Below are positions 3,359 through 39,400 of a DNA stretch of 64,000 nucleotides, in pieces. Source of the stretch: Symbiodinium sp. CCMP2592 (taxonomy: Eukaryota; Sar; Dinophyceae; Suessiales; Symbiodiniaceae); the NCBI GenBank assembly GCA_905221615.1, contig CAJNDT010005869.1:733733-797732 (forward strand). The letters run 5' to 3'. A program made the translations under genes and the position numbers. Under the pieces are notes generated by a model. It worked only from the letters and a program-made list of their open reading frames with translations. It was not told the DNA's origin and did no database searches. Within the stretch, counting starts at the first letter, position 1. Each line of letters opens with the position of its first letter.

Positions 3359-3395
3359 TACACAGCGGAGACATCAGTTAGATCAGAGTTATAAC
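3359..3395 (+). repeat. Left terminal inverted repeat
   Basis: Reads TACACAGCGGAGACATCAGT and onward to GTTATAAC. It matches the reverse complement of 14332-14368 at 35 of 37 positions. The leading TA is probably the target-site duplication. TAACCCC-type motifs follow inside the end. Confidence 0.9.
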
Positions 3396-3440
3396 CCCAT
3401 TTAACCCCATTATAACCCCGGCATAACCATGTTATATCGA

Positions 3441-3485
3441 GTTATAACTCCGGCTAACTTTATAAAGTTAGCCGGGAGTTATAAC
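3441..3485. repeat. Subterminal palindrome
   Basis: A 22-base arm (3441-3462, GTTATAACTCCGGCTAAC plus four bases) is followed at once by its reverse complement (3463-3485, one extra G). The GTTATAAC and GTTAGCCGG words recur to 3570 and, as GTTAGCCC/GTTATAAC, at the right end (14310-14340). Subterminal repeats in CACTA-type elements bind transposase proteins, so these are candidate binding sites. Confidence 0.6.
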
Positions 3486-3681
3486 ATAGTTAGCGACACG
3501 CTCCAAAAAGTTAAAGTGGAGTTAGGGGGAGTTATTTTTTTTGTGTTTAGGAAGGTAAAAAAGTTAGCCGGTGTTAAGATCGATCGAAATCCGCATCGTT
3601 TTAGCTTCCTGGATTACCGTAAGTTGTGCGGAATGTAACATGTTTTGCATGGTTTTAGCAGGGTTTATGTAAATGTAGGAA

Positions 3682-3706
3682 TCCGTGGCATTTTTTGGCT
3701 CCCAAG
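3682..3706 (+). other. Possible relic of a dinoflagellate spliced leader
   Basis: TCCGTGGCATTTTTTGGCTC CCAAG (written here in two parts) resembles the 22-nt dinoflagellate spliced leader, with one substitution and a few single-base indels, and lies 20 bases before the ATG at 3726. Relic leaders mark genes that went through an mRNA copy. With the indels it could be chance. Confidence 0.3.
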
Positions 3707-3725
3707 CTGTAAAGTTGTGGCCGCA

Positions 3726-5288
3726 ATGGCGGCCGTTGTGAAGCAACTTCTGGCTTCACAAAACTTTTTGAAGCAGGTTCGACACCTGCAGAACTTCGAG
3801 CAGCTACAGCAGAAGCAGCACGTGGTCCTGAAGTCTTTACTGGCGAAGACAGCCACCCTGTCGGCGGACGAGGCGTGCCGCATCTACGATGCACAAGACC
3901 GGAACGTGTGGACGGATGCACAAGTGCAGGAGGTGCAGGCAGCGGTCGCGGCGATCCCCTCCAGCGAGGCGTGCATGAAGAAGGGGCAGCTGCAGGACTT
4001 TGCGGCATTTGTGCCGTTCTTGAAGAGGAGCCAGTGGCAGGAGCTAGAGGGATGTCGCATGCAAGACCAGGTGAGCGTGAAAGTGTTGAGGTACTTAGCT
4101 GAGCTTGGCCTGCGACATCCGACGGAGCCTACTCTGGGCAATGTGCTGATCTTCAGCATCCTGATGCTGGAGATGCCGCTGCCGGATGCCGAGACGTTCC
4201 AGACGGAATTTGAAAGTTTCAAGCCGGCAGCTCGGCGCTTGCTTACTGCTCACGGCAACCCGCTGTTTCACTTGCAGATGCTGCCCGAGACTGCGGCTGC
4301 GTTGCCGGTTCAAGTGGCCCAGGCTGTGTATGTCCCGGAGGGCCCGGCGAGAGGTAAGGTGAGCATGGAGCAGCTCGGTTTCGCTGCTTCCAAGTTACCG
4401 CTTCGGAAGAGCAGTGCACAGCTGAAGAAGCAGCCGGAAAACGCAGGGCAGCTCCTGGGCGCCCTCGTGCAAGGACTGTCGAGTAGCTTGAGTAGCGGGT
4501 CGGGGCGGCCACCGGCTTTGCCTGTTGCACAACCGCCCAGAGCGAAGCAGCCGCTGGCAATCCTGGACCGTGAGCCCCTGGCAATCCTGGATCGCGACAG
4601 CGAGGCCCCGCCGGCCGTGGAAGCGAAGGTTGCGGAGGAGAAGACCAACGAAGCCCAGGCTTTGGAGGAGCCGGCGGCCGTGGAAACGGCGGAAAGTCAC
4701 CTCGAGCGGCTTCAGAAAGCTCTGTATGGCGACAAGCCCCAAGCTTCGCGAGGGAAGAAGCGAAAGGCTGAGGCAGAGCCGATGAAGGGACCTGCCGCAG
4801 CGAAGCAGCTCCAGAAAGCTCTGCGAGACGACGAGCCAGAAGCTTCGGGAGGGAAGAATCCAGAAGCTGAGGAGGAGCCAGAGCCAATGAAGAGACCTGC
4901 CGCAGCGAAGCAGCTCCAGAAAGCTTTGCAAGGCGACGAGCCAGCAGCTTCGGGAGGGAAGAATCCAGAAGCCGAGGAGGAGCCAGAGCCGATGAAGAGA
5001 CCTGCCGCAGCGAAGCAGCTCCAGAAAGCTTTGCAAGGCGACGAGCCAGAAGCTTCGGGAGGGAAGAATCCAGAAGCTGAGAAAGAGCCAAAGCCGATGA
5101 AGAGACCTGCAGCGAAGCAGCCTTCGCCGGCCTTGAAAAGACCTGCTGCGGCCGCGAAGCCACCCGCCGCTCCGTCTGGCAGGGCAGCTGTGCCGGGCAT
5201 GACCTGGGAGGATCGCATAAGCGCCCGTCCGTCCGGGTGTGCCAAGTGTCGTTACCTGCCAGGATGTACGCCCTCGTGTTTCCGCTGA
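3726..5288 (+). CDS. Transposon accessory protein with KRPAA repeats and Cys-rich tail
   Basis: About 520 residues starting at the ATG at 3726; the frame is open from 3645, but this Met begins the coding-like part. The N-terminal third is a helical, charged region without a domain I recognise. The middle is Pro/Ala/Glu-rich. From about residue 354 come three perfect-length 35-residue repeats (KRPAAAKQLQKALQGDEP and onward), preceded and followed by partial copies. The Lys/Arg-Pro-Ala blocks look like DNA-binding or nuclear-localisation tails. The C-terminus is a short Cys motif, CAKCRYLPGCTPSCF, of a type I associate with dinoflagellate repeat-borne proteins. As the first gene of the transposon, it may be a TnpA-like end-binding helper; that is inference. 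Confidence 0.6.
   Translation: MAAVVKQLLASQNFLKQVRHLQNFEQLQQKQHVVLKSLLAKTATLSADEACRIYDAQDRNVWTDAQVQEVQAAVAAIPSSEACMKKGQLQDFAAFVPFLKRSQWQELEGCRMQDQVSVKVLRYLAELGLRHPTEPTLGNVLIFSILMLEMPLPDAETFQTEFESFKPAARRLLTAHGNPLFHLQMLPETAAALPVQVAQAVYVPEGPARGKVSMEQLGFAASKLPLRKSSAQLKKQPENAGQLLGALVQGLSSSLSSGSGRPPALPVAQPPRAKQPLAILDREPLAILDRDSEAPPAVEAKVAEEKTNEAQALEEPAAVETAESHLERLQKALYGDKPQASRGKKRKAEAEPMKGPAAAKQLQKALRDDEPEASGGKNPEAEEEPEPMKRPAAAKQLQKALQGDEPAASGGKNPEAEEEPEPMKRPAAAKQLQKALQGDEPEASGGKNPEAEKEPKPMKRPAAKQPSPALKRPAAAAKPPAAPSGRAAVPGMTWEDRISARPSGCAKCRYLPGCTPSCFR
4785..5099 (+). repeat. Three 105-bp in-frame tandem repeats
   Basis: Units 4785-4889, 4890-4994 and 4995-5099, each 35 codons. They differ at a few codons (Glu/Ala and Glu/Lys swaps). 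A shorter diverged copy precedes (about 4710-4784) and a truncated one follows. Confidence 0.9.
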
Positions 5289-5499
5289 GTCATCCGAAAA
5301 AAATCGCTCGCAGATATCCTTGCATGCAAGAACAGTCGAGACCCTGCAGAGCTGCAAGCTAGAAGCTTCTAAGCCCTACTCCCTGTAGAGACCCTGCTGC
5401 ACCCCTCAACTGCCGCATCCGCAGCCGTCTGGCTCCGCTTTAGGTGGGCTGGGGGCTTGCCCTGCAACGGGCGAAGGCCCGTCCCGCCTTTTTCCTTGT

Positions 5500-5551
5500 A
5501 ATTGTAAATATATTAAAAGATAAATAAATACATAAATAAATAAATAAATAA

Positions 5552-5582
<31 letters not shown>

Positions 5583-6039
5583 TATGAGACCAACAGCTGG
5601 CCACGGCCGCGGTGGTCCGCAGGAGCCTGCAGGGGCAGGCTTCGGCCGCCTATGCTGCATCCAGCTCTGCGAGCAGGCTACGGCCGCTGCAGTAGAGCTG
5701 GCTTGCAGAAGCTCCTCGCAGCATGCCTGGCTACGGCCGGCACTATAGCCTCCTGCAGCGAGCTGGCTACGGCCGCCCCTGCAGGCAGGCTCCTGCAGCG
5801 AGCTGGCTACGGCCGCTGCTGCAGGCTGCGACTTGCAGTGGGCTGGCTACGGCCGCCGCTGCAGGCTGCGACGTGCAGTGGGCTGGCTACGGCCGCCGCT
5901 GCAGGCTGCGACGTGCAGTGGGCTGACGGCCGCCGCTGCAGGCTGCGGCATGCAGTGGGCTGGCTACGGCCGCCGCTGCAGGCTGCGACGTGCAGTGGGC
6001 TGGCTACGGCCGCCGCTGCAAAATCTAAATAATTAAATA

Positions 6040-6072
<33 letters not shown>

Positions 6073-6090
6073 ATATATATATACATATTA
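5500..6090. repeat. 40-bp minisatellite bounded by AT microsatellites
   Basis: A run of TAAATAAA ending in (TA)n at about 5560-5585 is followed by GC-rich repeats of GGCTGGCTACGGCCGCCGCT plus 20 more bases. Clean 40-bp units start at 5841, 5881 and 5958, one 37-bp unit at 5921, and degenerate units reach back to about 5640. A second (TA)n tract lies at 6038-6082. The open frames read through it (126 codons at 5652-6032) are repeat artefacts. Confidence 0.85.
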
Positions 6091-6150
6091 ACAACCCGCC
6101 AAACCCTAGACTCCCCCTAAACCCTTCCTTTGCCTTGCTCGCAGGTGCCC

Positions 6151-7451
6151 ATGCGCGACGACGAGGAGAAAGAAAAGAAAAAAGAAGAGGAGGAGAAGGC
6201 GGCTAAGGCCGCCGAAGCCGAGACCTCCTCCGAGGAGGAGGAGGAGGACGAAGAAGAGGAGGAGGAGGAAAAAAAAGAGGAGGTGGAGAAAAAAAAAGAG
6301 GCGGCGGAGCGGCCTCGAGACCCGAGGATACCGGGGCCCTCACAGGTGAGCCGCTGCTCGAGAACCCGCTCTCGCGGCCGGGAGAAGCGGGCGGAAGAGA
6401 AAAAAAAAGAAAAGAAGGAAAAGGAAAAAAAAGAAAAAAAAGAAAAAGAGCGGAGCCGCCGCTCCCGCCGAGACCGCAGCCGCAGCGAGCGGAGCCGCGG
6501 CAGAGTACGGCTGTGCCGCCGCTCTCCGGAGCCGGCGAGGCCACGTAGCCCCGAAGACGGGCCGAGTGCTTTAGCACTCGCACGGGCGAGGAGGCGGGAG
6601 GCGGAGCTGAAGGCTCAGCTGCACGAGCAGCTTCAGAGGGCCTCGCCAAAGAGCTCGCCGGCAGCAGCCGCCCGGGACACGACGAGGGCCTCGCAAAAGA
6701 GCTCGCCGGCAGGAGCCCCCCGGGACACGACGGACGCCTCGGAGGCTACAGCGAAGGGGAAGCGGGGACGAGGGCGGCGAAACAATGCAGCGAGGACCTA
6801 CCGCTGCAATCGCTGCCACCAGTACCTGGTGCCGACGGTGGCAGGCCACAGGTCCCATCGTCGCAGCGCCCTGTGCTTGGCCTGGCGAAGATGGGAACTG
6901 GGGGCGAGACCCTGGGACACTTGCGTGTCCCGGGGCCAGGCCGACTACGAGGCCTGGTGCAACGGGCACTTCCCCTTTTCGAGGACTCCGACTGCCCGCC
7001 GGACTTGGAGGAGGCGATGCAGACGGCGGCCAATGCAGCACCGGCTTCCTCCGTGGCTTCGAGTCCCAGCGGAAAGCCGCCTGCGAACCGCGGCAGCATC
7101 TGGACGGCGCCTCCTCCGCTGCCGGCAGCCTTGCAGAAGCCGGCCTCGAAGCCGAAGCCTGCTCACGTGCAGCCGCCGCCGAAGCCCGTGCAGCAGCAGC
7201 GAGAGCCGGCGCCGGCGAAGAAGCTGCGGCGAGCGAGCAGAGCGAGCAGCTCGGACAGTCGCCGCAGACGACGTAGGAGGCGATCGAAGGCCCGGTCGCG
7301 GTCTCCGGTCAAAGACCGGGACAAAGACCCACGAGATCCGGGCGGTGGCGGCGGCGGTGGCGACGGCCCAGGCGGCGGGCCGAGTGCTGCTGCTGCACTG
7401 TTTCGGATGGTGTGGCAAGACACCATGAAGCAGCTGCTGCAGCAGCAGTGA
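6151..7451 (+). CDS. SR-like charged protein with CxxC finger, frame broken near 6980
   Basis: The ATG at 6151 follows TTGCCTTGCTCGCAG, a good (trans-)splice acceptor. The first frame gives long Glu/Lys runs, then Arg/Ser-rich blocks like splicing-factor RS domains, then a Cys/His cluster (YRCNRCHQYL and about 20 residues to SALC) that could bind zinc. Near CCCCTTTTCGAGG (about 6972-6985) the coding signal moves back by one base. The new frame continues with FEDSDCPPDLEEA, a Pro/Ala linker, another Arg/Ser block and a Gln-rich end, stopping at 7449-7451. The old frame beyond this point becomes Arg-rich nonsense. A one-base indel in this copy, an assembly error or programmed slippage would all fit; the classical slippery heptamer is not in the required frame. 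Function unknown; probably RNA- or DNA-binding. Confidence 0.55.
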
Positions 7452-8070
7452 TCGTGCCACGGCATGCATCCATCCGCCCGCTGCCACGGCAGCTGCACGG
7501 CGGCAGTGAGGGGGGAGCACGGAAGCCACTAGCCCTCCGGCAAAACCCCACCAAAGCCTCACAAGCACAAACCAGCTCCGCAAAACCCTAAAGCCTCAAG
7601 CACAGCACAGCACAGCTCCTCCCTCCCTGAAGCCAAGGAGCCCTTTTGCGACTCGCCGTCCGCTCCAGAAAAAAATCCGACTGCCTGGCTTTTAGGGGTT
7701 TAGGGTTTAGGGTGTAGGGGTTTAGGGCTTCGGGGTTGAGGCTTGTTGGGTTTTCCTCCTAGGGTTTGTGCAGGGTTTCGGGTTGGAAGGGTAGGGTTTG
7801 TGCAGGGCTTCTGTAGTAGGGTGTACAGGGATGCCGAACCCTAAACCCCTAACTCCCTAACCATAAATATAGACCGGTTTATAATAACCCTAAGCCTGGG
7901 GGCTCTATATCGTAAATTATGCAATCCTCTAGAACCGTATGCAGCCCTATAGAAACCTTGCACCTCTCCTATCGGCCCTAAACCCTAAACCCTAAACCTT
8001 AAACCCTAAACCCAAAGCCCTCAACCCTAAACCGAAAACTTGAAGAGGAGACGTTGCGAAACTTGCCCTG
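7452..8070. repeat. Spacer with telomere-type heptamers inside the transposon
   Basis: TTTAGGG-type heptamers at 7690-7740, then other unique sequence, then CCCTAAA heptamers in the other direction at 7978-8010 and 8018-8035. No gene seen. The two orientations could pair as a large imperfect hairpin. Confidence 0.6.
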
Positions 8071-8121
8071 CATATGGCCGCAGCTGCTGGCTCCCTTTTT
8101 TGTGTTGGGGCTTGCCGCAGA

Positions 8122-8649
8122 ATGGCGGACTTCTCGCGGAGCGAGCTTTGCGAGCTGCGGAAGCGGCTCATGGAGCCCTGCGATGGCGAGGTGCCTCTGC
8201 CGCCGCCGGAGGAGTGGATAGACCACGAGCTGGAGCTGGTGCGTGAGACACTGTATTTCATCATGCAGTTCCGCTCGGTTGGCAATCGGGACGTGCTCGC
8301 CAAGTGCATCGGGGTGCTGGCGTGCCTGCGGTCGATGTGGGAGCAGCTGTTCGACGGCTGCCGAAACAAGAACCGCATGTGGAGCGGCTACTCTTTCGTG
8401 CCGCGAGATCCCGAGACCGACCTGGAGTCGTGGCTGCGGCAGGTGCCAGCCTTGCAGCTGCGGGATCGAGTGCGAGAGCTTCGCTTGTGCCTAGGCATCC
8501 TGCCGCACTACTTCGGCCGCAGACTGGGCACGGAATGGGACCAGAACTTCTCCACGGCGAGTCTTGAGGCCGCCAATGTGCTGCAGAGACTGCAAGAGCA
8601 GCCTGCTTTACAGGAGCTGCGAGCCGAAGTCTTGCATGAAATGGACTAG
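8122..8649 (+). CDS. Transposon accessory protein, about 175 residues, unknown
   Basis: The frame is open from an ATG at 8074, but the ATG at 8122 (MADFSRSELCELRKRLMEPC) follows an AG acceptor and begins the acidic, helical part, so I prefer it. The protein is Leu/Arg/Glu-rich with no Cys finger and no membrane segment. It contains PRDPETDLESWLRQVP near the middle and ends HEMD. It lies in the same orientation as all other genes of the element. I do not recognise a family. Confidence 0.5.
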   Translation: MADFSRSELCELRKRLMEPCDGEVPLPPPEEWIDHELELVRETLYFIMQFRSVGNRDVLAKCIGVLACLRSMWEQLFDGCRNKNRMWSGYSFVPRDPETDLESWLRQVPALQLRDRVRELRLCLGILPHYFGRRLGTEWDQNFSTASLEAANVLQRLQEQPALQELRAEVLHEMD

Positions 8650-8727
8650 CAGCTGCTGCTTTCGGTCCGGGCCCAGGTAGTGGTGCAGACGGGTGCGACT
8701 GTGAGCACCGAGCGGGTCAAGCCGGCC

Positions 8728-8860
8728 CCTAAAAGAGTCCAACAAAAGCTTCCGGACCAGTGAAAGACTACAGAAGTCAAACAGCTCTGAGCGGCTCCTG
8801 CCGAGTCCTAAAAGACTCCGAGAAAGGCTTCCGGACCAGTGAAAGACTAGCGAAGTCAAA
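8728..8860 (+). repeat. 79-bp-spaced direct repeat after the 8122 gene
   Basis: CCTAAAAGAGTCC at 8728 and CCTAAAAGACTCC at 8807 each begin a 54-base block ending GACTA..GAAGTCAAA, with CTTCCGGACCAGTGAAAGAC identical in both. Confidence 0.8.
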
Positions 8861-9085
8861 ATGAAGTCGGAGCCCCTGCAGGCAGGCTTAAGAACCTCCC
8901 GACTTCAGTTGAAGTCGGCACCTCCCGGATGCCTTCCTGTAGAGAAGTCCTGGTGAAGTTTGTAACCCCTCATAGGGACTGTGCAGCCAGGATCCCTGGC
9001 AGGGCCCTGACTTCAATTGAAGTCGGGACCTCCGGAACCCTAAACTGTAGCGAAGTCGAATCGAAGTCAGAATGAAGTCGAGCCC
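8850..9085. repeat. Cluster of GAAGTC/GACTTC words
   Basis: About ten GAAGTC or GACTTC words occur within 235 bases, two of them as tight palindromes (CTTCAGTTGAAG near 8901, CTTCAATTGAAG near 9011). The spacing is irregular. This looks like a protein-binding array in the inter-gene spacer, but no factor is known. Confidence 0.55.
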
Positions 9086-9254
9086 TGCCCTGAACCCTGG
9101 AATCCGGCATAGGGGTCTAAATTCGGGAGAGTAGGCTTTTCAGGGTTTGAGGGTTCCGCAGACTCGCAGAAAGCCTCCTGCTTTGCTGCAGCTTCTGGCT
9201 CGAGAGCCTTCGTTCCAGTTCGCCTCCAAGCCCTTCTAACCCCTCCTGCCTGAC

Positions 9255-10347
9255 ATGGCGCTCGAGACTGAACCGACCCAGCTTGTGGCTGCCCCTTCCC
9301 AGGAAGCACCGGCAGCCGAGACGGAGGAGCTGCAGTCGCAGCAGTCTCGTGCCGGAGCAAACCTGGAAGAGCCCACCAAAGAGGTCCAGACCTGCAAAGA
9401 GTGCAAGCAGGAGTACGCTGTCGAGGAGGACGACAAGCAGGTCTACAAGCACTGCAGAAACCTGAAGCTGCGGCTGTGGCGCCGGCTCGGTGCTTGGTCG
9501 ACCTTCAACTCCCTCAGCGACACCGAAAGGTTGTGAAGACGCAGGCACGTCCTGCTGGCGGACAATCCAGTCTCAGCTCGTCGAAACCTTGACTCGCCAG
9601 CGAGTCTCGGAGACTCGCAGCGAGACGGGCGGCTCCTACCTTCCTGCCTCGGTGCTGCTGACTCAAGGGTACACACAGGACGTGATCGACGCCTGCAGCG
9701 ACACGGAGGAAAACCCCGCCTTGGGCGGCACGACGTACCGCCTGAAGGTCCACTCCGAGTACTGTGTCGAGACGGAGAAGACCGTCCGCGAGGAGCTCTT
9801 GAACCGGGTGAAGCAGGTGTGTGCTGGCAAGCAGGTGCCCAAGGAGTGGGACGTGCAGCGGCCGGAAAAGCCGGGCAAGAACGAGAAGCCGGACCGTACG
9901 GACGAGAAGGAAGACAAGCAGAAGGCCAAGTTCCGGAAGGTCGCTCTGGCCCTGGCCAAGTCGGCCCTGCCTCAAGTGAGTGCTGCCTGGTGCAGCCTGC
10001 AGACGGCGGTGTCGGGGGCGGGCCTGCCGGCAGACCTGGAGGAGGCAAAGAAGGGCGAGTTGCTCGGGATGCTGCGGAAGCTCGGGGAGTGGAAGAACGC
10101 CTGTGAGCACACCCTGGCGAACAAAGAGAACTTGCAGGACCTGCCGGTGTTGCCCTTCCGCAAGGACGAGGTGAAGCCCACCTGCAAGGCTGCAGCGGAG
10201 CAGCTGAAGGACGTGAAGCTTTGCAGGGCCGCGGCCGCCAAGCTGAAGCGGGAGAGCAAGGCTGCTGAGAAGGCCAAGCAGGCCGCGGCGCCGGCAGGCG
10301 AGCCCAAGGCAAAGCGCCCCCGCACGGCCGCGAAGAGGGGTGCGTGA
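9255..10347 (+). CDS. Zinc-finger-like transposon protein, frame broken near 9535
   Basis: The ATG at 9255 opens an acidic region, then CKECKQEY and a CRNLKLRLWRRLG segment, a Cys-pair finger of a type I have seen in dinoflagellate repeat-borne proteins, ending FNSLSDTERL before a TGA at 9534-9536. The continuation is one base over (frame of 9490-10347) and starts in sense near CWRTIQSQLVETL. It runs through GGSYLPASVLLTQGYTQDVI, a Lys-rich helical middle, and an Ala/Lys tail ending AKRPRTAAKRGA, a probable nuclear signal. Joining the parts needs one base to be skipped between about 9527 and 9545, so this copy has a frameshift or a very small unrecognised intron. Whole protein about 360 residues. 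It may be a DNA-binding helper of the transposase; exact role unknown. Confidence 0.55.
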
Positions 10348-10830
10348 GCGAGCCAGAAGCCGTACAGTATTAATTATGTGCATGTATCTGCAGCCTTGAG
10401 CTGCCCGGCTGCTTCTGCATCCGGATATAATATTTATAAGAATGAACAACAACAGCGAGAGCTTTTGAGTCTGTAGTTTTTTAGAGTAGTTTTTTGCACC
10501 GGCGACCATGCAGGTGTGTGTATGTAGATATGTAATCATGCATGCAGCAGAGAAGGGTTCTTGAGAGTGTTGCTTGCAGACAGTCACTGCAGGGGTCGCC
10601 GGTAAACCGCACAGCTGCATGCTCGTTCTCCTTCGGGAGGGCCATACAATATAATTCGGTGTTGCTGACACTCGATCGCTCCGCCACTCCTGCGTTTAGA
10701 AAAAAATCCACGTTGCTAGTCGCAGTGCTGCCTTGCCCGCCCTGGAAGCTTTCGCAAAATCCTCAACCACGGCATGTTGTTGCTGTTTTGCTCAAGCCGT
10801 GCTCTCCTCCGCCTGTAGTGGGGGGACAGC
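10348..10830. other. Transposon spacer, no gene seen
   Basis: 480 bases between two genes. There is a GAAAAAAATCC word near 10698 that also occurs after the first two genes (near 5296 and 7668). Otherwise I see nothing. Confidence 0.5.
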
Positions 10831-11541
10831 ATGCCAAAGCGACGGAAGAAGGAGCCGGAGGCGGTCACTCGCTTGGACGAGCGGGGAGTCCACGTCTTCA
10901 AAGGTCCCGGACAGCAGGTGGAAAGCTTCCGAGACCTGCGCAGCGCCTTCCATGCCGGGAAGCCGCTGCCTGCTGAGGCGGCCGCAGAAGCAGGGGCGGG
11001 GAGCAGCAGCAGCTTAACTGCAGACGCTCCTGCGGTCGAACAGGTGCTGGCAGAAGACCGGCCTACTCTTGCAGAAGCCACGGAAGAGGCCCCGGCTCGG
11101 ACACCCTCTGCAAACCGCAAGCGGCCGCACACGGACACCGCTCTTGACTTCCTGGCGCCGTGCACCGAGACTCTCCGAACCCTGGTCGGAGCCGGGTCCT
11201 TTTCGGCAGCGGATCGGCAGGAAGCCGAGGAGCTGCTCGCTGCCGCGAGTGCAATCATGTCGGCGGAGCTCGTCGACGGCAAGGAGAAGCAGGATTGGCC
11301 GGAAATCTTGCGATTGCACACTGCCGCGACCGACTTGATGGCTCGGCTGCAGGACAAGCATCAGACGGCCGAGGCCACACAGCGGACGCCGCAGAGCCTG
11401 ATAGGCAGCCCCTGGCCGGCGACCAGTCCGCCCAGTCGTCTTCTTTCGGCGGATCTTTTTGCCTCGCCGCAGACCCTGCCTCCGACGCCTCTGCCGAAGC
11501 AGGAGAAGAAAAGAAGGACTCTGAGCCCCGACAAAGAGTAG
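10831..11541 (+). CDS. Transposon accessory protein, 236 residues, unknown
   Basis: Starts MPKRRKKEPEAVTRLDERGV, a basic opening that could be a nuclear signal, followed by an Ala/Glu-rich middle with a helical stretch (SAADRQEAEELLAAASAIMS) and a Ser/Pro/Thr tail ending KKRRTLSPDKE. No Cys finger, no membrane segment and no domain I recognise. One clean frame from ATG to TAG. It sits just upstream of the transposase in the same orientation. A regulatory or DNA-bridging role would be guesswork. Confidence 0.5.
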   Translation: MPKRRKKEPEAVTRLDERGVHVFKGPGQQVESFRDLRSAFHAGKPLPAEAAAEAGAGSSSSLTADAPAVEQVLAEDRPTLAEATEEAPARTPSANRKRPHTDTALDFLAPCTETLRTLVGAGSFSAADRQEAEELLAAASAIMSAELVDGKEKQDWPEILRLHTAATDLMARLQDKHQTAEATQRTPQSLIGSPWPATSPPSRLLSADLFASPQTLPPTPLPKQEKKRRTLSPDKE

Positions 11542-11584
11542 GTGCATGTTTTATACATGCAGATCTCTGAAATGTGTCGTGAGT

Positions 11585-11680
11585 TTTGCAGGGGTCTTTA
11601 TAGGGCCCGGTGCTGCTGCTGCGAAAGACGCGGGTCTCGCTGAGGAGCTCTCACATCCGCTGTGAGTATGCCGGTATGGA
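11585..11680 (+). pseudogene. Decayed duplicate of an internal transposase segment
   Basis: GGGGTCTTTATAGGGCCCGG and the next 70 bases match 12718-12822 inside the transposase gene (GGTGCTGCTGC, GGGTCTCGCTG, CTCACATCCGCTGTGAGT and GCCGGTATG are shared in order). There are small insertions and deletions that break the frame. It is a fragment of a second transposase copy or a local duplication. Confidence 0.8.
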
Positions 11681-11782
11681 AAACAAAGAGCTCCAGCACG
11701 TTTCCATGTACATGCAAGGACTTCTGTGCCGAAGCCGCCTTTCTCGTTCCGCACGTGGACATTTGCCGCGAGGCTCAGAGCA

Positions 11783-12086
11783 ATAGGCCGTGCACGACGG
11801 AGTCCAGCCTCACAGTCCTGCCGTGCAACACCCTAAACCTTGCAAGTCCTAAACAGAAAAACCACAGGCCATCCACGAAGGAGTCAAGCCTCATAGTCCT
11901 GCCCTGCAGCACCCTAAACCTTGCAAGTCCTAAAGAAAAACCACAGGCCAGCCAGCCTCACAGTCCTGCCGTGCAGCACCCTAAACCTTGCAAGTCCTAA
12001 AAGAAAAGCCACAGACCATCCACGAAGGAAACCAGACTCACAGTCCTGCCGTGCAGCACCCTAAACCTGGCAACTCCTAAACAGGC
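11783..12086 (+). repeat. Four copies of a ~79-bp tandem repeat before the transposase
   Basis: Each unit carries CCTCACAGTCCTGCCGTGCA then CACCCTAAACCTTGCAAGTC and an A-rich join. Units begin at about 11783, 11862, 11941 (12 bases shorter) and 12008. The 112-codon frame at 11662-12000 is an artefact of this repeat. Being directly upstream of the transposase, it could be regulatory. Confidence 0.85.
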
Positions 12087-12139
12087 AGACACAGACCTCG
12101 TAGTGAAACAGTTGTAGCAGCTTCTTAGGCCTCCTGGCC

Positions 12140-14092
12140 ATGTCGGGTCCCACGAAAAGAAAAGCAGGAGTCCTTGACCTGCCCACGGCACGAGAGCAGC
12201 TCAAAGACTTGCCAAGCCTTACGCCAAGGCTGCTGCAGCAGGTGCTCGCCCGACTGACGGGTTCGGAGGGGAGCAGAAAGCAAGCCGTGCTTCTGAAGGC
12301 CGAGCGGCAGCTGTTGTCCTTGCTTCCCCTTCCACTTGCAGGCGAGAAAAGGTCCGTGCAGCTCCCTGTTGTCCAGCTTGACCGGCTGGTGCAGGAGAAG
12401 TGCCGAGCTTGTCCTTCTTTTGGAGACCTCCTGAGTGAGGCCGTGCGGCAGGCGGGAACTGCGGGCATGAATGCGGTTCTCTACGTGGACGAAGCAGTGC
12501 CGGGGAACGTCCTCAGACCGGACAACCTGCGGCGGTCCTACTTAGTCTACGTGACTTGGATGGACCTGCAGCGAGCTTGCACGTCCGAGTTCGCCTGGTG
12601 CACGGTCGCCTGCATCCGGCAGAGTCTCCTCAACCAGGTTCAGGGAGGCCTGCCGGCGGTCATAGCTGCGATCCTGGACATGCTGCAAAGCAGTGTGTTC
12701 GAGGGTTTCGCTGTGGAGGGGTCTTTAGGCCCGGTGCTGCTGCGAACGACACGGGTCTCGCTGCTGGCGGACGAGCCGGCACTCACATCCGCTGTGAGTG
12801 CGAAATCGCATGCCGGTATGAGGCCGTGTTTAAGGTGCCGCAATGCTATCGCTATCAAGCATGGCGAAAGAGCAGACTTCGTGGATATATCATGTCACGA
12901 CTTCAATGCCTTTCTGCCACAAACGAAGCAGCAGGTTAGCGAATACATGCGGCTCCTCTCCGGCATCAGGGTGAAATCCAAGCTTGAGGAGTCCCAAAAA
13001 CTTTTGGGTTGGATATATAACCCCGACAGCATCGTTTGCCGAGACTCCTGTCTGCTGACGGTGGAAGGCTGTCTTTTCGATGCGATGCACTGCCTCTGGT
13101 GCAATGGCATCGTAGGACAAGAGGTCAGCCTCTTCCTCCGTGCTGCGAAAGACAGCATCGGCTTAAAGCAGCATCAGGTTGCTGCTTTGGGAGATCTGCC
13201 TTGGAAGCCAGGTGTTGGCGGCCGCTCCAAGGCAGGGCCCCTTCTCGATGCCAAGCTGTTGACCTTCGACTCAGACTACAGAGGGGATTCGAGCCAGACC
13301 ATGTCGCTGCTGCCCCTCCTGACGTATTTCGCCAGGATGGTTTTGCTGGAAAAGGGAGTGCCTGTTGCGGCAGTGGAAAGCCTTAGCCGGCTATGCCTGA
13401 TTTGCAATCTCGTGAAGCTTTGCAAATTGGAGGCTCGGCCCGAGCTTTGCTCCAAACTTCTGGAGCTGCAGCAGCAGCACCTGCAGGGCTTCAAAAAGTA
13501 CTACGGGCAAGACCAGGTCCGGCCCAAGCACCACTACAGCCTTCACTTGGGCGAACAAACTAAAGCAATGCGAAGGATGCTGGACTGTTTTGTTTGTGAA
13601 AGGAAAAACAAAACCTTCAAAGAGCAAGCTCGCAACCACAGCAACTTCGAAGGCACGACCTTCGAAAGCTCGGTGCTGTTGCGCCTCCTCAAGGTGGATA
13701 CCCAAGCTTCCGTCGGGTATGGCCTCTCGCCAAGGCTCGCTCCACCGATCCGGACAGATCCACTGCTGCAGCAGCACCTGGACTGCTCAGACCTGCGCTG
13801 CAGCTCTGCAGTGCTCGTCAAAGGAGGAGAGCTCACCGAGGGCTTCTACGTCTTGACGGCCGAGTTGGCTCTGCACGTGGATGCTTTTGTCCAGCGAGGC
13901 CAAAGCGACTTTCTGGCTCTGGCTAGAACCTTGTCCAGAACGGATGCGGCCGTCGCTCCGCTGGATTGCACCTACAGCAAGTGGAGGTTCAATGCCTCGG
14001 CCCCTGTGCTGGCCTACCTCAGTGACGTTTGCAACGTTTCTCGGCCTTGTTGGAGTCTCGCCGAAGGTGAGTTCGTGACCCTTCTGCACTGA
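12140..14092 (+). CDS. DDE transposase, Tnp2/CACTA-like
   Basis: 650 residues, one uninterrupted frame. Motifs in order: LYVDEAVPGNVL with first acidic residue D117; LLADEPAL with D211, followed by a Cys pair (CLRC, 230-233) as in Tnp2/KDZ-type transposases; LFDAMHCLWCNGIVGQEV (D314, H317), like the D-x-MH motif of Tnp2 proteins; then PKHHYSLHL (462-470) and DCFVCERKNK with the likely catalytic E487. Such enzymes cut at the terminal repeats and reinsert the element with a short target duplication, matching the 37-bp repeats and TA flanks here. The frame is intact and the candidate catalytic acids are present, so it may be active. Assignment is by motif layout; a related plant-type Tnp2 or a KDZ-type family cannot be separated by eye. 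Confidence 0.8.
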   Translation: MSGPTKRKAGVLDLPTAREQLKDLPSLTPRLLQQVLARLTGSEGSRKQAVLLKAERQLLSLLPLPLAGEKRSVQLPVVQLDRLVQEKCRACPSFGDLLSEAVRQAGTAGMNAVLYVDEAVPGNVLRPDNLRRSYLVYVTWMDLQRACTSEFAWCTVACIRQSLLNQVQGGLPAVIAAILDMLQSSVFEGFAVEGSLGPVLLRTTRVSLLADEPALTSAVSAKSHAGMRPCLRCRNAIAIKHGERADFVDISCHDFNAFLPQTKQQVSEYMRLLSGIRVKSKLEESQKLLGWIYNPDSIVCRDSCLLTVEGCLFDAMHCLWCNGIVGQEVSLFLRAAKDSIGLKQHQVAALGDLPWKPGVGGRSKAGPLLDAKLLTFDSDYRGDSSQTMSLLPLLTYFARMVLLEKGVPVAAVESLSRLCLICNLVKLCKLEARPELCSKLLELQQQHLQGFKKYYGQDQVRPKHHYSLHLGEQTKAMRRMLDCFVCERKNKTFKEQARNHSNFEGTTFESSVLLRLLKVDTQASVGYGLSPRLAPPIRTDPLLQQHLDCSDLRCSSAVLVKGGELTEGFYVLTAELALHVDAFVQRGQSDFLALARTLSRTDAAVAPLDCTYSKWRFNASAPVLAYLSDVCNVSRPCWSLAEGEFVTLLH

Positions 14093-14331
14093 GACTGCAA
14101 AAAAGATGCCCGCAGAGTTTTTAGGGTTTAGGGTTTCAGGCTTCATCTTCAGGAATTTGGGAGGGTTTTGCTTCGATTATCTTAAATGTCGTTATTATTC
14201 AGTTGTTTTGCTCACCTTCACCCACTTTACGTAAGTCACTAAATCAAGCCAATTCAAGCTGCACCATCCTTTTTGCTTAAACAGCCCTAAAAAAGTTACA
14301 CCATAGTTAAACCGAGTTAGCCCGTAACTAT
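14093..14331. other. Right subterminal region of the transposon
   Basis: AT-richer tail after the transposase, with TTTAGGG heptamers at 14121-14133 and AAAAAGTTACACC..GTTAGCCC words that mirror the left subterminal region. Confidence 0.6.
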
Positions 14332-14368
14332 GTTATAACCCCGATCTAACTGATGTCTCCGCTGTGTA
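14332..14368 (-). repeat. Right terminal inverted repeat
   Basis: Reverse complement of 3359-3395 with two mismatches, ending GATGTCTCCGCTGTG then TA at 14367-14368. Confidence 0.9.
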
Positions 14369-34419: not shown

Positions 34420-36239
34420 ATGCTGCGCATCCGGATGCTTTCAGGGGAGGAGGTGGCGAGCATGCCTGTGGAGCAGTTGAGCAATGCGAAGGCATTGAAA
34501 CAACAACTGAATCGCTCGCACGGCTTGCCCACCCGATTTCGGCAAAGACTCCTCCTTGACGGCAATCCTTTGGATGATTCTGCCCAGTTGGTGTCGGCCA
34601 TGGAGCTGGAATTGGTTTTACTTGCGTATTCCATAGCCTCACGGATGCATGCGGAAGAGCTGGCAGCTGCCTCCACAAACGGCTCCGCAACGGAGGTGTC
34701 GTCTTTTCCAAGGGTCCTACGTCTGACCCACTGCACCCTAAACGCCTTCAGTTCTGAACTCGATAAACGCTCTCTATAGGGCTCCAGCTACTTAATTACT
34801 AGGTTATACTTGTACCAGCCACATAAGCTATAATATGTACCCCAGTTATCCCATAGTGTTTGAATGAAATTGAAGCTCCAGGGTCTACATCCCAGGTCCC
34901 TCATATGACCGGTAACCGTGAACCATACACCCAAGAGTCTCGACTCCTCAACCCACAGCCCACATGGGTTTACCTAGAGTCTCCATTGTAGTTCCTTTTT
35001 GGGTTATCCAATTTTATGGGAGTGATCCTAGTATATAGTTTTTGGTTAACCAAAAAAAGGAACTACAATGGAGACTGTAGGTAGGGTCCAGGGCTTCTAG
35101 TCTAGGGTTTATAAAAGGGTTTAGGGATGCGCACAAACAGCAAGCAGGTTGAGGCCATCTTACAACAGCCCCAGCATCCAGACCTGGTGGATGAGTACGG
35201 CAGAAGTCCGCTGATGCTGGCATCGGCAGAAGGCCACGAGGAAGTCGCACGCTTGCTGCTGGAGGCCGGTGCCGACAAGGACTTAGCCGTGCATGGTTTC
35301 ACTGCCCTGATGGTGGCTTCTCATGCAGGCCACGAGGAAGTCGTGCGTTTGCTGTTGAAGGCCGGTGCCGACAAGGACTTAGCCGACAATGAGGGTGTCA
35401 CTGCCCTAATGGCGGCTTCTGAGCAAGGTCACGTGGAGGTCGCGCGCTTGCTGCTGGAGGCTGGTGCCGATAAGAACTTCACAAACAATCGCGGCGCACC
35501 TGCTCTCATGGCTGCCTCTGAAGGAAGTCACGTGGAAGTCGTGCATTTGCTCCTGGAGCTTGGTGCTGACAAGAACTTAGCCGACAATGAGGGTGCCACT
35601 GCCCTAATGTTTGCTTGCGAAGTCGGCCACGTCGAAACCGCGCGCTTGCTCGTTGCAGCCGGGGCCGACAGCAATTTAGCCACCAATCTCGGTGTCACTG
35701 CTTTGATGCTAGCTTCTCAAGACGGTCACAAGGAAATCGTGCGTTTACTGCTGGCTGCCGCTGCTGACAAGAACAGAGTCAGCCGAAATGGCATCACTGC
35801 CTTGATGTTGGCTTCTGAAGACGGCCATGTGGAAGTCGTGCGGTTGCTGCTTGATGCTGCTGCCGACCTGAACGTAGCCGACAGTCTTGGTGACACTGCG
35901 CTGTCGTTGGCTTCTCAAGACGGCCATGCGGAAGTGGTACGATTGCTGTTGGCAGCTGGTGCCGAGAAGAACTTCGCTAACAGTGACGGTGCCACTGCCC
36001 TTATTCGAGCTTCTGAAGAAGGACACTTGGAAGTCGTGCGCTTGCTGTTGGAGGCTGGTGCCGACAAGAACCTGACCAACAGCTCTGATGAAACTGCCCT
36101 GATGGCGGCTTCTCTAGGCGGCCACACAGAAGTGGTGCGTTTGCTGCTGGAGGCCGGCGCCGACAAGGATTCAACAAACAAACGCCGTCGCTGCTCCTCC
36201 GAGAACCTTCCAAAAAGCAGGGGTGAAGGCCCACCCTAA
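34420..36239 (+). CDS. Ubiquitin-like domain plus ten ankyrin repeats
   Basis: Two exons: 34420-34695 (92 codons) and 35148-36239 (363 codons plus TAA). The join is phase 0 (GAG|GT ... GCAAGCAG|GTT) and gives SATE-VEAILQQPQHPDL. Residues 1 to about 72 form a ubiquitin-like fold: IRMLSGEEVASMPVEQL, then KALKQQLNRSHGLP, FRQRLLLDG and MELELVLLAYS. Ten 33-residue ankyrin repeats follow, each with the T-ALM-x-AS-x-x-GH-x-EVVRLLLEAGADK pattern; the tail is basic (STNKRRRCSSENLPK). This UBL-ankyrin architecture is a very large family in Symbiodiniaceae. Ankyrin stacks bind proteins and the UBL may link to the ubiquitin pathway; the partner is unknown. The repeats are nearly identical in DNA, suggesting recent duplication or conversion. 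A family C MITE sits in the intron. Confidence 0.88.
34977..35078. mobile_element. MITE family C, copy 3, inside the ankyrin-gene intron
   Basis: AGTCTCCATTGTAGTTCCTT at 34979 and AAGGAACTACAATGGAGACT at 35057 are perfect inverted repeats, with GGTTA/TTAACC just inside. TA lies near both ends. Confidence 0.85.
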
Positions 36240-36479: not shown

Positions 36480-39400
36480 AAACAAAGAAGCCGAATGCTC
36501 AAGTCTACTGATGCGGGAGCCTTCTCGACCGTATATACCCACTGTTGGGACCATATACCCCTAAAGGAGGGTACAAGGAGGGTCCTGGAGAAGTCGTTCT
36601 CATTTTCTGGTGACAATATTTCTAGTTTGTAAGTATCCAGTATCCTGTTACGGTTACTTGTATGTGTGATATATTGTGTCCCAAGCCCTTTCCTTATGTT
36701 GAAAGCCCTTGCATATCGGGGTAGGTTCAAGCTTACCCTAAGGCTCATGTGCCAAAAAAAGTAGATACTTACACCTTTCAGGTGTTCCTATATGGGCATT
36801 TTAAGTCCTAAGCACGCACTACATGGCTACATGGAGCCTCAGGGTTAGGAGGTTCAGGTCATTTCGGACCGTCCTCACAGCGCCCAAGACCCCCTTTGTT
36901 ACTTTGGGAGACCACATGCTTCAGTCAAGGGGGATTACGCCCTGCGGGAAATATGGGGGTCGGAATAAGTAGTAATGGCATCCCCTTGTTGTGCCATAGA
37001 AGTATACAATAATTAATGGACACCAAAACCAAAACCCTCTTCAACTTGTCATTTTGCTCTACGGCCCTTGTACAGTCTTCGATGATTCTATACACTACCC
37101 TGAGGTTAGCTCCCTCAAAGACGCAATCCAAAGCGAGTGCGTCACGAGGTGGGTGTCGGGTGGGGGCAGGCTTTGACAAGCTAATCATGTGAGATCTTTA
37201 TCTCTGCTGGGCTTAAATTCCGGGTTTTATGCAGTTTTCCCGGCGTTGTGCGCAGTACATATCTGCGTGGCACCGTAGGGGCTTTTTTACGGAGTGCTTG
37301 AGGACGATTTGAGGCAGTCATACACCCCAAAGCCGAAGCATCAGTCCCAGACCCAAAGCTACGGAGAGGGCATCGTTTTCGAGCCCCGTGTTTTGGTTGA
37401 GTTTTGTTAGGATGAGGTTTAGGGTTTAGGGGTGCATCGAGCGAAGTGCATCGGACCCTAAACCCTGCGCAAACCCAACATCCCTAAACCCCTAAACTCT
37501 AAACAGGTTGTACAAAGAGGAACTCTACGACTCCCTTCTGTGCGAAGAGGGCAATGTTTGGTGCTCAGAGCGGTTTAGGGTTTAGGATTTAAGATTTGCA
37601 GGGCTTTAGGTTTGTAACGTGTTGACTTTAGAACTCAGCATGTAGGGTTTAGCTGTATGCACTTTTCTAGTTCAGGCTTCGGGTCTCGTTTAAGTAGATA
37701 CGGTTCACGCTACAGTAGCAGCTTATTATGGGCTTGACTCTATATCAGCTAAACCTGCCAGGCAGGAGTTTGATGCTGGTCAGAATCACAACGGCGATGA
37801 ACCCGTCGCCATCACAAGAGTTTCCGGTTTAATCTTGCGATTCGCTGCCTGCAATGTAGCTTGACTGCCTCGGTGAATATACTATAGGGGCCTAAACAAT
37901 TACCAAAACTATTTAGGGTGGCGAGTGGGGTCGAAGCTGGTGGATTTTTCGGTCCGAGAGCAACTCATTTCCACGAAACGTGAGATCGACTCGGCGCGGA
38001 GGGTTCGTTATTGCAAGTATAGCATAATGGGCCCCAAAACCCCCCCTTAGTCCAATTATTAAGGCCACTTTAGTATTGCTTCTTTTCGTAACTTCTCGAC
38101 TGGAACATGATGACGTATTTGCCTACACGCTTGGCCGTATGTTGAGAAGATATTAATATTGGGCTTGCCTGTTGAGTTTGTTAGTCGGCACCTCGTCCTG
38201 AAGTCTTCCCGCATATGCAGGCATGCTACTAATCAGGTTGCATGGTAGGTCCCTTGCAAAACTGCAGTTGCAGCTTTGCTTTTGTCTTCTTGAGCCTCAA
38301 ATACCCTAAAACCTAATCCTAAACCGCCTGTATTTTCACATACGCCCAGGGTTCGGCCCTATAGCTTCATTTTTCCCGAGCCCAAACACCTGGTGTTCAG
38401 GCCAAGGCATGTCCGAAGCCTAAAATTCGGAACCTGAAGCTCCAAACCATAGCCCCCAAACCCAAAGCCCCAAACTTCAAAATGAATTACAAGATGGTTC
38501 CCTTACAGGGGTCTATAAGGGCTACTATCAGGGATATTATAGTGACTTAGTATTCGGGCCTAAATAACTACCAACACTATTTTGGGTGGCTCCTTATTAT
38601 GTTTATGGTATAATGGCCACAAAACTCTATTCGACTTACTCAGGCCCCTATAGTAGACCCCAAACCCAAAGCCCCAAACCTTCAGTCGGAAGCCTTCAAC
38701 CGTGAAGTCCAAATCTTGAACCCTGGCTCCGAACCCTACGCCCCAAGCCCCAAGCCTTAGTTATCAATGACCCAAGGCCCAAAGCCTACTAGTAGCCCTA
38801 AACCCTAAACCCCCTAAGCTCCAGACTCCAAACCCTAAACCCTGGCCCTAAAACCACCCAAAGCCACGAAGTCCCAGGTCAAGACACGAAGAGACTCCTG
38901 TCGGGCTACCTCGGTCGCAGCGAGCGGATTTTTACTTAGCGTTTAGGGATAAAAAAGCTAGCTAGCTATAGCTATAGATACAGATACAGATATAGAAATG
39001 GGTATTTAGGTTCTAGGGTTCAGGGACAATAGGTGCATATTTATGTATGTTTTGATAACTAGCTAGCAAGCAAGAAAGCTAGCTAGCAATCTGTAGATAT
39101 AGATACGAATATAGACAGATGGGTTCTATCATTCCATCAGGATTCTGTAGGGGTTCTACAAAATTATGAGGATTCGATTCTGGACCTTAGTGAGGTTGGG
39201 GCCCGGAGTGTGAGGCTTTAGATTTCGGGTTAGGGCACTGTGCTTGGATGTGATGCCCATAGGCTCCATAGTAGTTCCTTTTGGGGGTTACCTTATAGGG
39301 CTCTTAACATCTCTTAACATGAGGCCCCGAAAGGAACTACTATGGAGCCTATGGATTTTTGAGGCGCTCTTTGACTATTCCTTGGGGTTTACGGGCTTGC

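Follow-up and report, generated by a model that had tools for sequence, protein, structure and literature searches.

Is the 11-kb stretch that lies between two inverted repeats in the genome of the dinoflagellate Symbiodinium sp. CCMP2592 a single mobile element, and do the five genes that accompany its transposase belong to the machinery that moves it? The question is raised by a window of 64,000 nucleotides (the whole stretch of DNA analysed here; contig CAJNDT010005869.1, positions 733,733 to 797,732 of the forward strand, or G000:C5007:733733-797732 in our numbering of the 5383 contigs of the 1.098-Gb host assembly). An earlier note on this DNA had described a complete, TA-flanked transposon of CACTA type with an intact transposase and five accessory genes, which might form a multi-protein machine. 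We conclude that the element probably belongs to a dinoflagellate cut-and-paste family, a new lineage of the type of the CMCT clade (CACTA/EnSpm, Mirage, Chapaev and Transib; extract of PMC12730594) with a conserved multi-protein cassette.

Borders, sister copies and empty sites

The DNA transposon spans 11,006 bp (window 3361-14366) and has nearly perfect inverted repeats at its termini, with a target duplication of 2 bp. The inverted ends of the earlier note are confirmed: the arms, 3359-3395 and 14332-14368, are 37 nt long with the TA counted in and 95% complementary. They rank first among the 154 inverted pairs of the region, and the outer 20 bases of the ends occur at these 2 places only in the window at up to 3 mismatches, against a shuffle expectation of 0. 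The rank of the arms, this expectation and the ends common to four copies rule out a chance inverted repeat. The GC content is 0.56-0.61 across the ten 1-kb bins from 4001 to 14000 and 0.42-0.55 in the remaining bins, edge bins included; an Rfam search of the window gave 0 matches at gathering scores. All six genes lie on the plus strand, in the order 1-2-3-4-5-6, and the features are as follows.

3359..3360, no strand: left target-site duplication (TA); the 2-bp size is seen at the empty sites of two sister copies
3361..3395, plus strand: left terminal inverted repeat (CACAGCGGAGACATCAGTTAG...), from arm pairing, end searches and sister copies
3361..3600, plus strand: left subterminal repeat region, with GTTATAAC three times, GTTAGC four times and AGTTA twelve times, both strands counted; none of these counts was reached in 300 dinucleotide shuffles
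3683..3706, plus strand: remnant resembling the spliced leader, which stops 19 bases short of the gene 1 start; score 21 against a shuffle mean of 13.1, reached by 2 of 500 shuffles
3726..5288, plus strand: gene 1, 520 amino acids (aa), with a conserved N-terminal part, KRPAA repeats and a C-terminal GCxKCRxxPGC motif (here GCAKCRYLPGC)
6151..7451, plus strand: gene 2, acidic, RS-like, with one Cys/His finger; 430 aa in the copies on C779 and C2503, frame-broken in the window copy
7170..8160, plus strand: patch that differs from the sister copies more than the rest does (31/944 versus 39/10013 substitutions against C779); limits set by eye
8122..8649, plus strand: gene 3, 175 aa (191 aa if the upstream ATG at 8074 is used), without known domain
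9255..10347, plus strand: gene 4, a CxxC...CxxC finger protein; 367 aa in C779, C1113 and C2503, frame-broken in the window copy
10831..11541, plus strand: gene 5, 236 aa, with a basic N-terminus; seen in the window-element family only
12140..14092, plus strand: gene 6, the transposase, 650 aa, open frame, with D117, D211, C230/C233, H465/H469 and E487
12488 (D117), 12770 (D211), 12827/12836 (C230/C233), 13532/13544 (H465/H469) and 13598 (E487), plus strand: codons of the conserved motif residues, from the alignment of relatives
14237..14366, minus strand: right subterminal repeat region, weaker than the left; AGTTA 5 times against 0.55 expected (0 of 300 shuffles), GTTATAAC once (2 of 300)
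14332..14366, minus strand: right terminal inverted repeat, from arm pairing, end searches and sister copies
14367..14368, no strand: right target-site duplication (TA), from the flank comparison of copies

The assembly holds four near-identical full copies of the element (in the window contig C5007 and on C779, C1113 and C2503), 10,911-11,006 bp long and 99.3-99.8% identical. A search with the first 240 bases found these four at about 100% and one further match at 74%. The end pattern at up to 3 mismatches gave 29 matches, of which the 8 perfect ones all come from the four full copies and the other 21 carry 2-3 mismatches, fewer than the 67 given by the control. A looser, degenerate (IUPAC) form of the end gave 22 matches: the same 8, both ends of a relative on C5199 and 12 others with one mismatch (control, 8). 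The C5199 relative is internally deleted to 732 bp, with both ends present and TA on either side. The earlier note had looked to further copies sharing both ends, and there are three full ones besides this deleted one. Five of the 12 one-mismatch matches have one sequence in common, and since their outer flanks are identical too they were set aside as an ordinary repeat rather than transposon ends (G000:C4534:160403-181205, C629:168224, C1667:11079 and C2747:26096; on C4534 two inverted copies lie 20.8 kb apart).

All four full copies end in CACAG..CTGTG, and their flanking dinucleotides are TA/TA in the window, TG/TG on C779, TA/TA on C1113 and TT/TT on C2503. When the flanks of each copy were joined with one dinucleotide kept and used as a query (40 of 232 candidates scored), the C2503 site was found empty at C655, with a single dinucleotide and 100% identity over 300 of 300 bases, and, in diverged form, at C18 (81%, query 906-1189). 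The C1113 site is empty at C191, again with a single dinucleotide (98% over query 601-904). For the window copy no empty site was found among these scored candidates. Nor was there one for C779, whose flanks gave weak repeat matches alone; even the longer of these did not exceed 78%, and none extended more than 20 bases across the join. For two insertions the same assembly contains both the filled site and an empty counterpart, which may be an allele or a duplicated segment. The flanks of the copies, together with the empty sites, indicate that the duplication is 2 bp and of the form TN, not TA, in the four copies; a TA-specific target is ruled out by TG and TT at two of them. The TA on each side reported by the earlier note is thus correct for the window copy and fails as a rule, and the duplication it wished to see at empty sites appears, as a single dinucleotide, at two of the four. 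Its view of a complete, gene-rich DNA transposon stands, and the sister copies, 2-bp duplications and two empty sites add that the element was recently mobile. Since near-identical, apparently recent copies and empty sites occur together in one assembly, activity is directly testable.

The copies differ in coding state. Six of six frames are open in C779 and C2503, C1113 has broken gene 2 and transposase frames, and in the window copy genes 2 and 4 have lost their reading frames to small indels, so that this copy is not fully coding. Its transposase frame is open, in agreement with the earlier note; the five further plus-strand genes of that note are all present, two of them in this damaged state. 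Gene 3 probably starts at 8122 and not at 8074, since relatives from other families align from residue 18-20 onward.

The transposase and its class

The transposase has the motif string D-D-C(2)C-H(3)H-E with RAG1-like spacing, and D117, D211, C230, C233, H465, H469 and E487 are invariant in 13 of 13 aligned relatives; 94 residues separate the first D from the second and 276 the second D from the E. The distance from the second D to the first C is 19 residues in 31 of 31 loci, two of them from outside the host genome. The first-D box was found in 29 of these (missing in L030 and L032) and the H-E box in 28 (missing in L030, L031 and L032), where L030 and L032 are pieces of one element and all three are interrupted or partial. 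Mouse RAG1 has D600, D708, C727, C730, H937, H942 and E962, with D708 and C727 also 19 apart (extract of PMC4914335). Two bacterial-metagenome contigs, L074 (3087 bp) and L075 (3611 bp), encode transposase relatives at 26% identity and are probably eukaryotic contamination.

The window transposase matches no Pfam and no NCBIfam family. Its 13 relatives gave two chance matches and no PF02992 or other transposase model in Pfam at E ≤10, a threshold at which the HMMER filters drop most matches above about 0.1. A search of the PDB gave no credible match (interleukin-24 at 0.011 for the transposase profile). The CMCT clade is defined by the order D, D, C(2)C, H(3-4)H, E, with CA..TG termini in most cases and target duplications of 2-5 bp (extract of PMC12730594). 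The window-element family shows this motif order, CA..TG termini and a duplication within that range, and it is on motif, ends and duplication size, not on sequence similarity, that we place the element in or beside CMCT. It apparently belongs to this group of DDE transposons and forms there a lineage of its own.

Could it be a true CACTA/EnSpm element in the strict sense, as the earlier note had it? CAC...GTG ends, subterminal repeats and the C(2)C and H(3)H motifs would all agree with this, but the ends read CACAG and not CACTA, the duplication is 2 bp and not 3 bp, and no tnp2 (PF02992) match appeared for the window transposase or its relatives. Without these three defining features the element is not CACTA proper; we hold the strict assignment to be improbable, and that part of the earlier claim falls.

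Related elements in the same genome help to delimit the lineage. The transposase search of the assembly, in which the best 68 of 680 candidates were scored, gave 66 loci once pieces were collapsed, and element borders were read by comparing copies of one relative at different sites. Families B (C802, C591) and B1 (C114, C3580) are 10.2-10.4 kb long, with inverted ends that start CCTAGGTAGCCCCG or CCTAAGTAGCCCCG in B and CCTACGTCGCCCCG in B1; the family B transposase is 36-41% identical to that of the window family. All four complete B and B1 copies have TA on both sides and no further duplication. A 37-base family B end pattern had 12 matches, to three-prime ends only, the five-prime ends being read from the sequences of the loci. 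In family C, of which five loci were examined (L034-L038), the ends have a third sequence, and four of the five loci have the gene 1 tail motif (KKPAA...GCSKCRRRPG) at most 1.5 kb upstream of the transposase, L036 giving no match.

The TA on both sides of the window copy, C1113, C5199 and the four B and B1 copies might evoke a Tc1/mariner-type element inserting at TA. In Tc1/mariner elements about 34-39 residues lie between the last two catalytic residues. Here the D-D and D-E distances are the 94 and 276 residues given above, C(2)C and H(3)H stand between the second D and the E, and TG and TT flank two of the four copies, so that we give this alternative hardly any credence.

Elsewhere in the window, two short repeats (34971-35083 and 39257-39354) with 97%-complementary arms and a common GTAGTTCCTTTT core are possibly miniature inverted-repeat transposable elements or introner-like elements; the first has ends TACCTA...TAGGTA, which resemble those of family B.

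The accessory genes and the cassette

Whether the accessory genes travel with the transposase was examined at the 66 transposase loci, by counting gene matches that share the strand of the transposase and lie at most 30 kb upstream of it (about 0.0009 expected per match by chance). The matches used were 48 for gene 4 (82 of 82 candidates scored), 23 for gene 3 (42 of 42), 5 for gene 5 (73 of 73), 70 for gene 1 (83 of 3451) and 22 for gene 2 (98 of 4448). Among the 23 loci with transposase identity of at least 32%, gene 4 lies upstream at 23, gene 1 at 20, gene 3 at 18, gene 2 at 16 and gene 5 at 4. Outside the window-element family, gene 4 was found at 19 of 19 loci, gene 1 at 16, gene 3 at 14, gene 2 at 12 and gene 5 at none, with genes 1-4 all present at 8 of the 19; these loci are not independent, as 13 belong to family B, 3 to B1, 2 to the family of C1968/C646 and 1 is C2001, and C636 and C4905 of family B have identical flanks and may be one place assembled twice. 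Wherever two or more genes were seen, the order was 1-2-3-4-transposase. Genes 1 and 4 occur in four other families, and genes 2 and 3 in B and B1 only, gene 3 within B1 at C261 only. The earlier proposal that the accessory genes travel together therefore holds for four of the five, in the same order and orientation with related transposases, and fails for gene 5.

In family B the distances upstream of the transposase are mostly 1.7-2.1 kb for gene 4, 3.3-3.6 kb for gene 3, 4.8-5.1 kb for gene 2 and 6.5-8.7 kb for gene 1; stretched distances occur at C5048, C1218, C261, C5191 and C502. At the first of these (G000:C5048:326758-355223, family B) the distance of genes 1, 3 and 4 from the transposase is greater by about 19 kb, which would fit the insertion of another element between gene 4 and the transposase. 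Most accessory-gene matches are free of stops; the exceptions include one TAG in gene 4 of C114 and C3580 and one TGA in gene 2 of C354, C802 and C348. Matches without linkage to a scored transposase number 32 of 70 for gene 1, 14 of 48 for gene 4, 4 of 23 for gene 3, 3 of 22 for gene 2 and 1 of 5 for gene 5.

Gene 5 has no detected relative at any other transposase locus, its sole other match among the fully scored candidates being a 36-residue piece, and a phmmer comparison with the open reading frames upstream of 18 relatives' transposases gave no match. The gene 5 slot of C114 holds a 244-codon frame whose similarity to gene 5 is unconvincing (18 of 500 shuffles score as high), and the frames in C1968 and C2001 are unlike it (140 and 216 of 500).

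One might argue that a transposase-only element has captured neighbouring host genes, as a transduplicate, and that the accessory genes are passengers. This would agree with gene 5 being seen in one family only, with the lack of a known transposition domain in any accessory protein, with a ratio of non-synonymous to synonymous differences (pN/pS) near 1 among recent family B transposase copies, and with the matches of genes 1 and 4 that lie away from scored transposases. It is, however, difficult to reconcile with family B, which at its level of transposase divergence keeps four genes in the same order, on the same strand and at similar distances (C5048, C1218 and C5191 stretched), most of them without an internal stop, and with gene 3, which, all its candidates having been scored, is so rarely found away from a transposase. 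We consider passengers unlikely. Size and gene number might equally recall a virus-derived or Polinton-like element. None of the proteins has a PHROGs match at E ≤0.1, the viral contigs yielded no relative of genes 3, 4 or 6 (in the case of genes 3 and 4 a search sensitive to close relatives only), no polymerase, integrase or capsid match appears in Pfam at the sequence level, and the duplication is 2 bp; such an origin seems very improbable.

Several observations weigh against a new lineage with a conserved cassette. The candidates were scored in part (68 of 680 for the transposase, 83 of 3451 for gene 1, 98 of 4448 for gene 2). Families B, B1 and C do not start with CA, so the CA..TG termini of the CMCT clade are lacking in family C and, if TA is the duplication, in B and B1. 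Neither gene 2 nor gene 3 was detected in the C2001 family or the C1968/C646 family, and at the 43 loci below 32% identity the counts fall to 7 for gene 4, 6 for gene 1, 1 for gene 2 and 0 for genes 3 and 5, the genes having been lost there or having diverged too far to be seen. The pN/pS among recent family B transposase copies is 0.68-1.23 where computable, so that no selection is shown between recent copies. Finally, none of the six proteins has a sequence match to a described family in Pfam, NCBIfam or PHROGs. None of the accessory proteins reaches the curated cut-off of any Pfam or NCBIfam family or has a PHROGs match. What the library searches of the proteins gave was weak or made no sense and stayed below the cut-offs (for example DUF3467 0.0062, HypA 0.0082, Spc24 0.013), and gene 4 and the N-terminal part of gene 1, the two accessory proteins searched against the PDB, had no match there.

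Two groups of loci carry accessory-gene relatives away from any scored transposase. At G000:C1015:58240-63661, relatives of genes 1, 3 and 4 stand in order on one strand without a listed transposase match nearby (best 68 of 680 scored), either as a truncated element or with a transposase outside the scored candidates. At G000:C335:851776, C5207:998937 and C1890:1073998, frames of about 220 aa match the first 147 or so residues of gene 1 at 43% identity, with no scored transposase nearby, and are possibly host or domesticated genes.

The elements may also have exchanged segments. The transposases of C261 and C114 differ at 12 of about 1692 sites compared, and C261 has a gene 3 whose two parts, in two frames, match that of the window family at 84% and 58% identity, its other genes being only 36-41% identical to theirs. 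C114 has no gene 3, and the slot is taken there by another frame, rich in Cys, which measures 150 codons from stop to stop and 118 aa when counted from a Met. In the window copy, the patch at 7170-8160 diverges from the sisters about eight times more than the rest of the element and is probably a recombination tract. Together, the gene 3 contrast and this patch suggest segment exchange between elements.

The subterminal motifs, which were picked after the sequences had been seen, are family-specific and enriched at both ends: GTTATAAC and AGTTA in the window family (A), AGTTATGTTG in B and TTATAAGT in B1. GTTAGC is not enriched in the right subterminal region (33 of 300 shuffles), and in the interior of the window element the two motifs tested are at or below background. 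Family-specific subterminal repeats would be expected where a protein encoded by the element recognises them, the part that TNPA plays in Spm/En (extract of PMC2613891).

A further feature may connect the cassette to the host. The 21-base dinoflagellate spliced leader has 429 exact copies in the assembly (reversed control, 0), which marks the host as a dinoflagellate, and no copy in the window at up to 3 mismatches. The remnant before gene 1 is the best-scoring tile on either strand of the element, and similar remnants lie 29 bases before the gene 1 start in family B and 15 bases in B1 (0 and 3 of 500 shuffles reach the score). Because 2 other tiles, among the 852 taken from both strands of the window, equal or exceed its score, the case rests on recurrence in three families. 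The shuffles give no support to a remnant before genes 2, 3 or 6 (417, 266 and 471 of 500 score as high); before gene 4 the case is weak (77 of 500), and before gene 5 a remnant is possible at 10786-10796 (TTTTGCTCAAG; 12 of 500). A review takes leader remnants upstream of genes as support for retroposition and describes unidirectional gene order as typical (extract of PMC11453091); its main text uses the word transposase 0 times. The remnant may supply a leader-bearing mRNA of the first gene, or may trace a cassette built from reverse-transcribed, trans-spliced mRNA.

How might such a cassette work? The gene 6 transposase would cut both ends and join them to a TN dinucleotide. The Cys-finger proteins of genes 1 and 4, which also occur with the most distant transposases, could be DNA-binding partners that sit on the family-specific subterminal repeats and bring the ends together, much as TNPA serves TNPD in maize Spm/En. 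We regard these specific roles, proposed from composition and co-occurrence, as plausible, somewhat short of probable. Genes 2 and 3 might be further subunits, or might act on transcription, RNA processing or host silencing, and gene 5 would be a family-specific addition. The six co-oriented genes would fit the host's unidirectional gene organisation, and one transcript may express all of them. The multi-protein machine of the earlier note is thus one that we infer. More tentative still is a bolder version, according to which this is an undescribed RAG/Transib-like DDE lineage that needs, in order to move, a heteromeric machine encoded by genes 1-4 and the transposase gene as a co-oriented cassette. 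At least five families of one dinoflagellate would then have kept genes 1 and 4 and at least three would have kept genes 2 and 3, modules would have been exchanged between families, and the leader remnant may link the cassette to trans-splicing.

Next to the short repeats mentioned above, the window also contains a 370-aa open frame (35127-36239) that encodes about ten ankyrin repeats (Pfam Ank_2, 1.5e-84) and consists of 99-bp units in tandem.

Comparison with known systems

Eukaryotic cut-and-paste transposons usually need one or two proteins. Elements of 10-11 kb that combine extra genes in fixed order with a transposase of CMCT/RAG type would offer a natural transpososome of several subunits, to be set beside RAG1/RAG2 and TNPA/TNPD, and would give a name to some of the repeats in dinoflagellate genomes. 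The catalytic family seems to be large, with 680 candidate places in the genome at first look, 68 of them scored. No such element appears in titles or abstract openings among the matches listed from open PubMed Central; subscription journals and Repbase lie outside this scope, and an existing entry there is possible. Among the groups to be compared, Mirage has a TA duplication, Transib a 5-bp duplication and VANDAL a Mutator-like transposase.

With the CMCT clade the element shares the D-D-C(2)C-H(3-4)H-E order, a duplication of 2-5 bp and, in the window-element family, the CA..TG ends; it differs in having no detected similarity to Pfam models and in its multi-gene cassette, and families B and B1 end in CC..GG if TA is the duplication. 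Spm/En and the plant CACTA elements likewise have a catalytic protein and at least one separate protein expected to bind family-specific subterminal motifs, as well as deletion derivatives, and the repeated subterminal motifs typical of CACTA are present in the window element. Their CACTA ends, 3-bp duplication, tnp2 domain and set of TNPA and TNPD only, in contrast to the six co-oriented genes found here, set them apart (extract of PMC2613891). ESTA, a fungal EnSpm-like group, has the CMCT motifs and a 2-bp duplication, but its duplications are TA and some of its members carry a TET/JBP gene (extract of PMC12730594), whereas ours are TN, with unrelated accessory genes. The duplication that is always TA in ESTA and Mirage is thus not that of the window family (TA, TG, TA, TT), although all four complete B and B1 copies show TA. 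The VANDAL elements of Arabidopsis (VANA, VANB, VANC) resemble ours in encoding several proteins, one of which acts on family-specific noncoding repeats; host and gene set are different, and the anti-silencing shown there is conceivable here (extract of PMC10398659). Transib/RAG1 has in common with our element the 19 residues from D to C, C-x2-C, H-x(3/4)-H and the E 18-20 residues further on (extract of PMC4914335); our element is set apart from it by a sequence without detectable similarity and by its 2-bp duplication.

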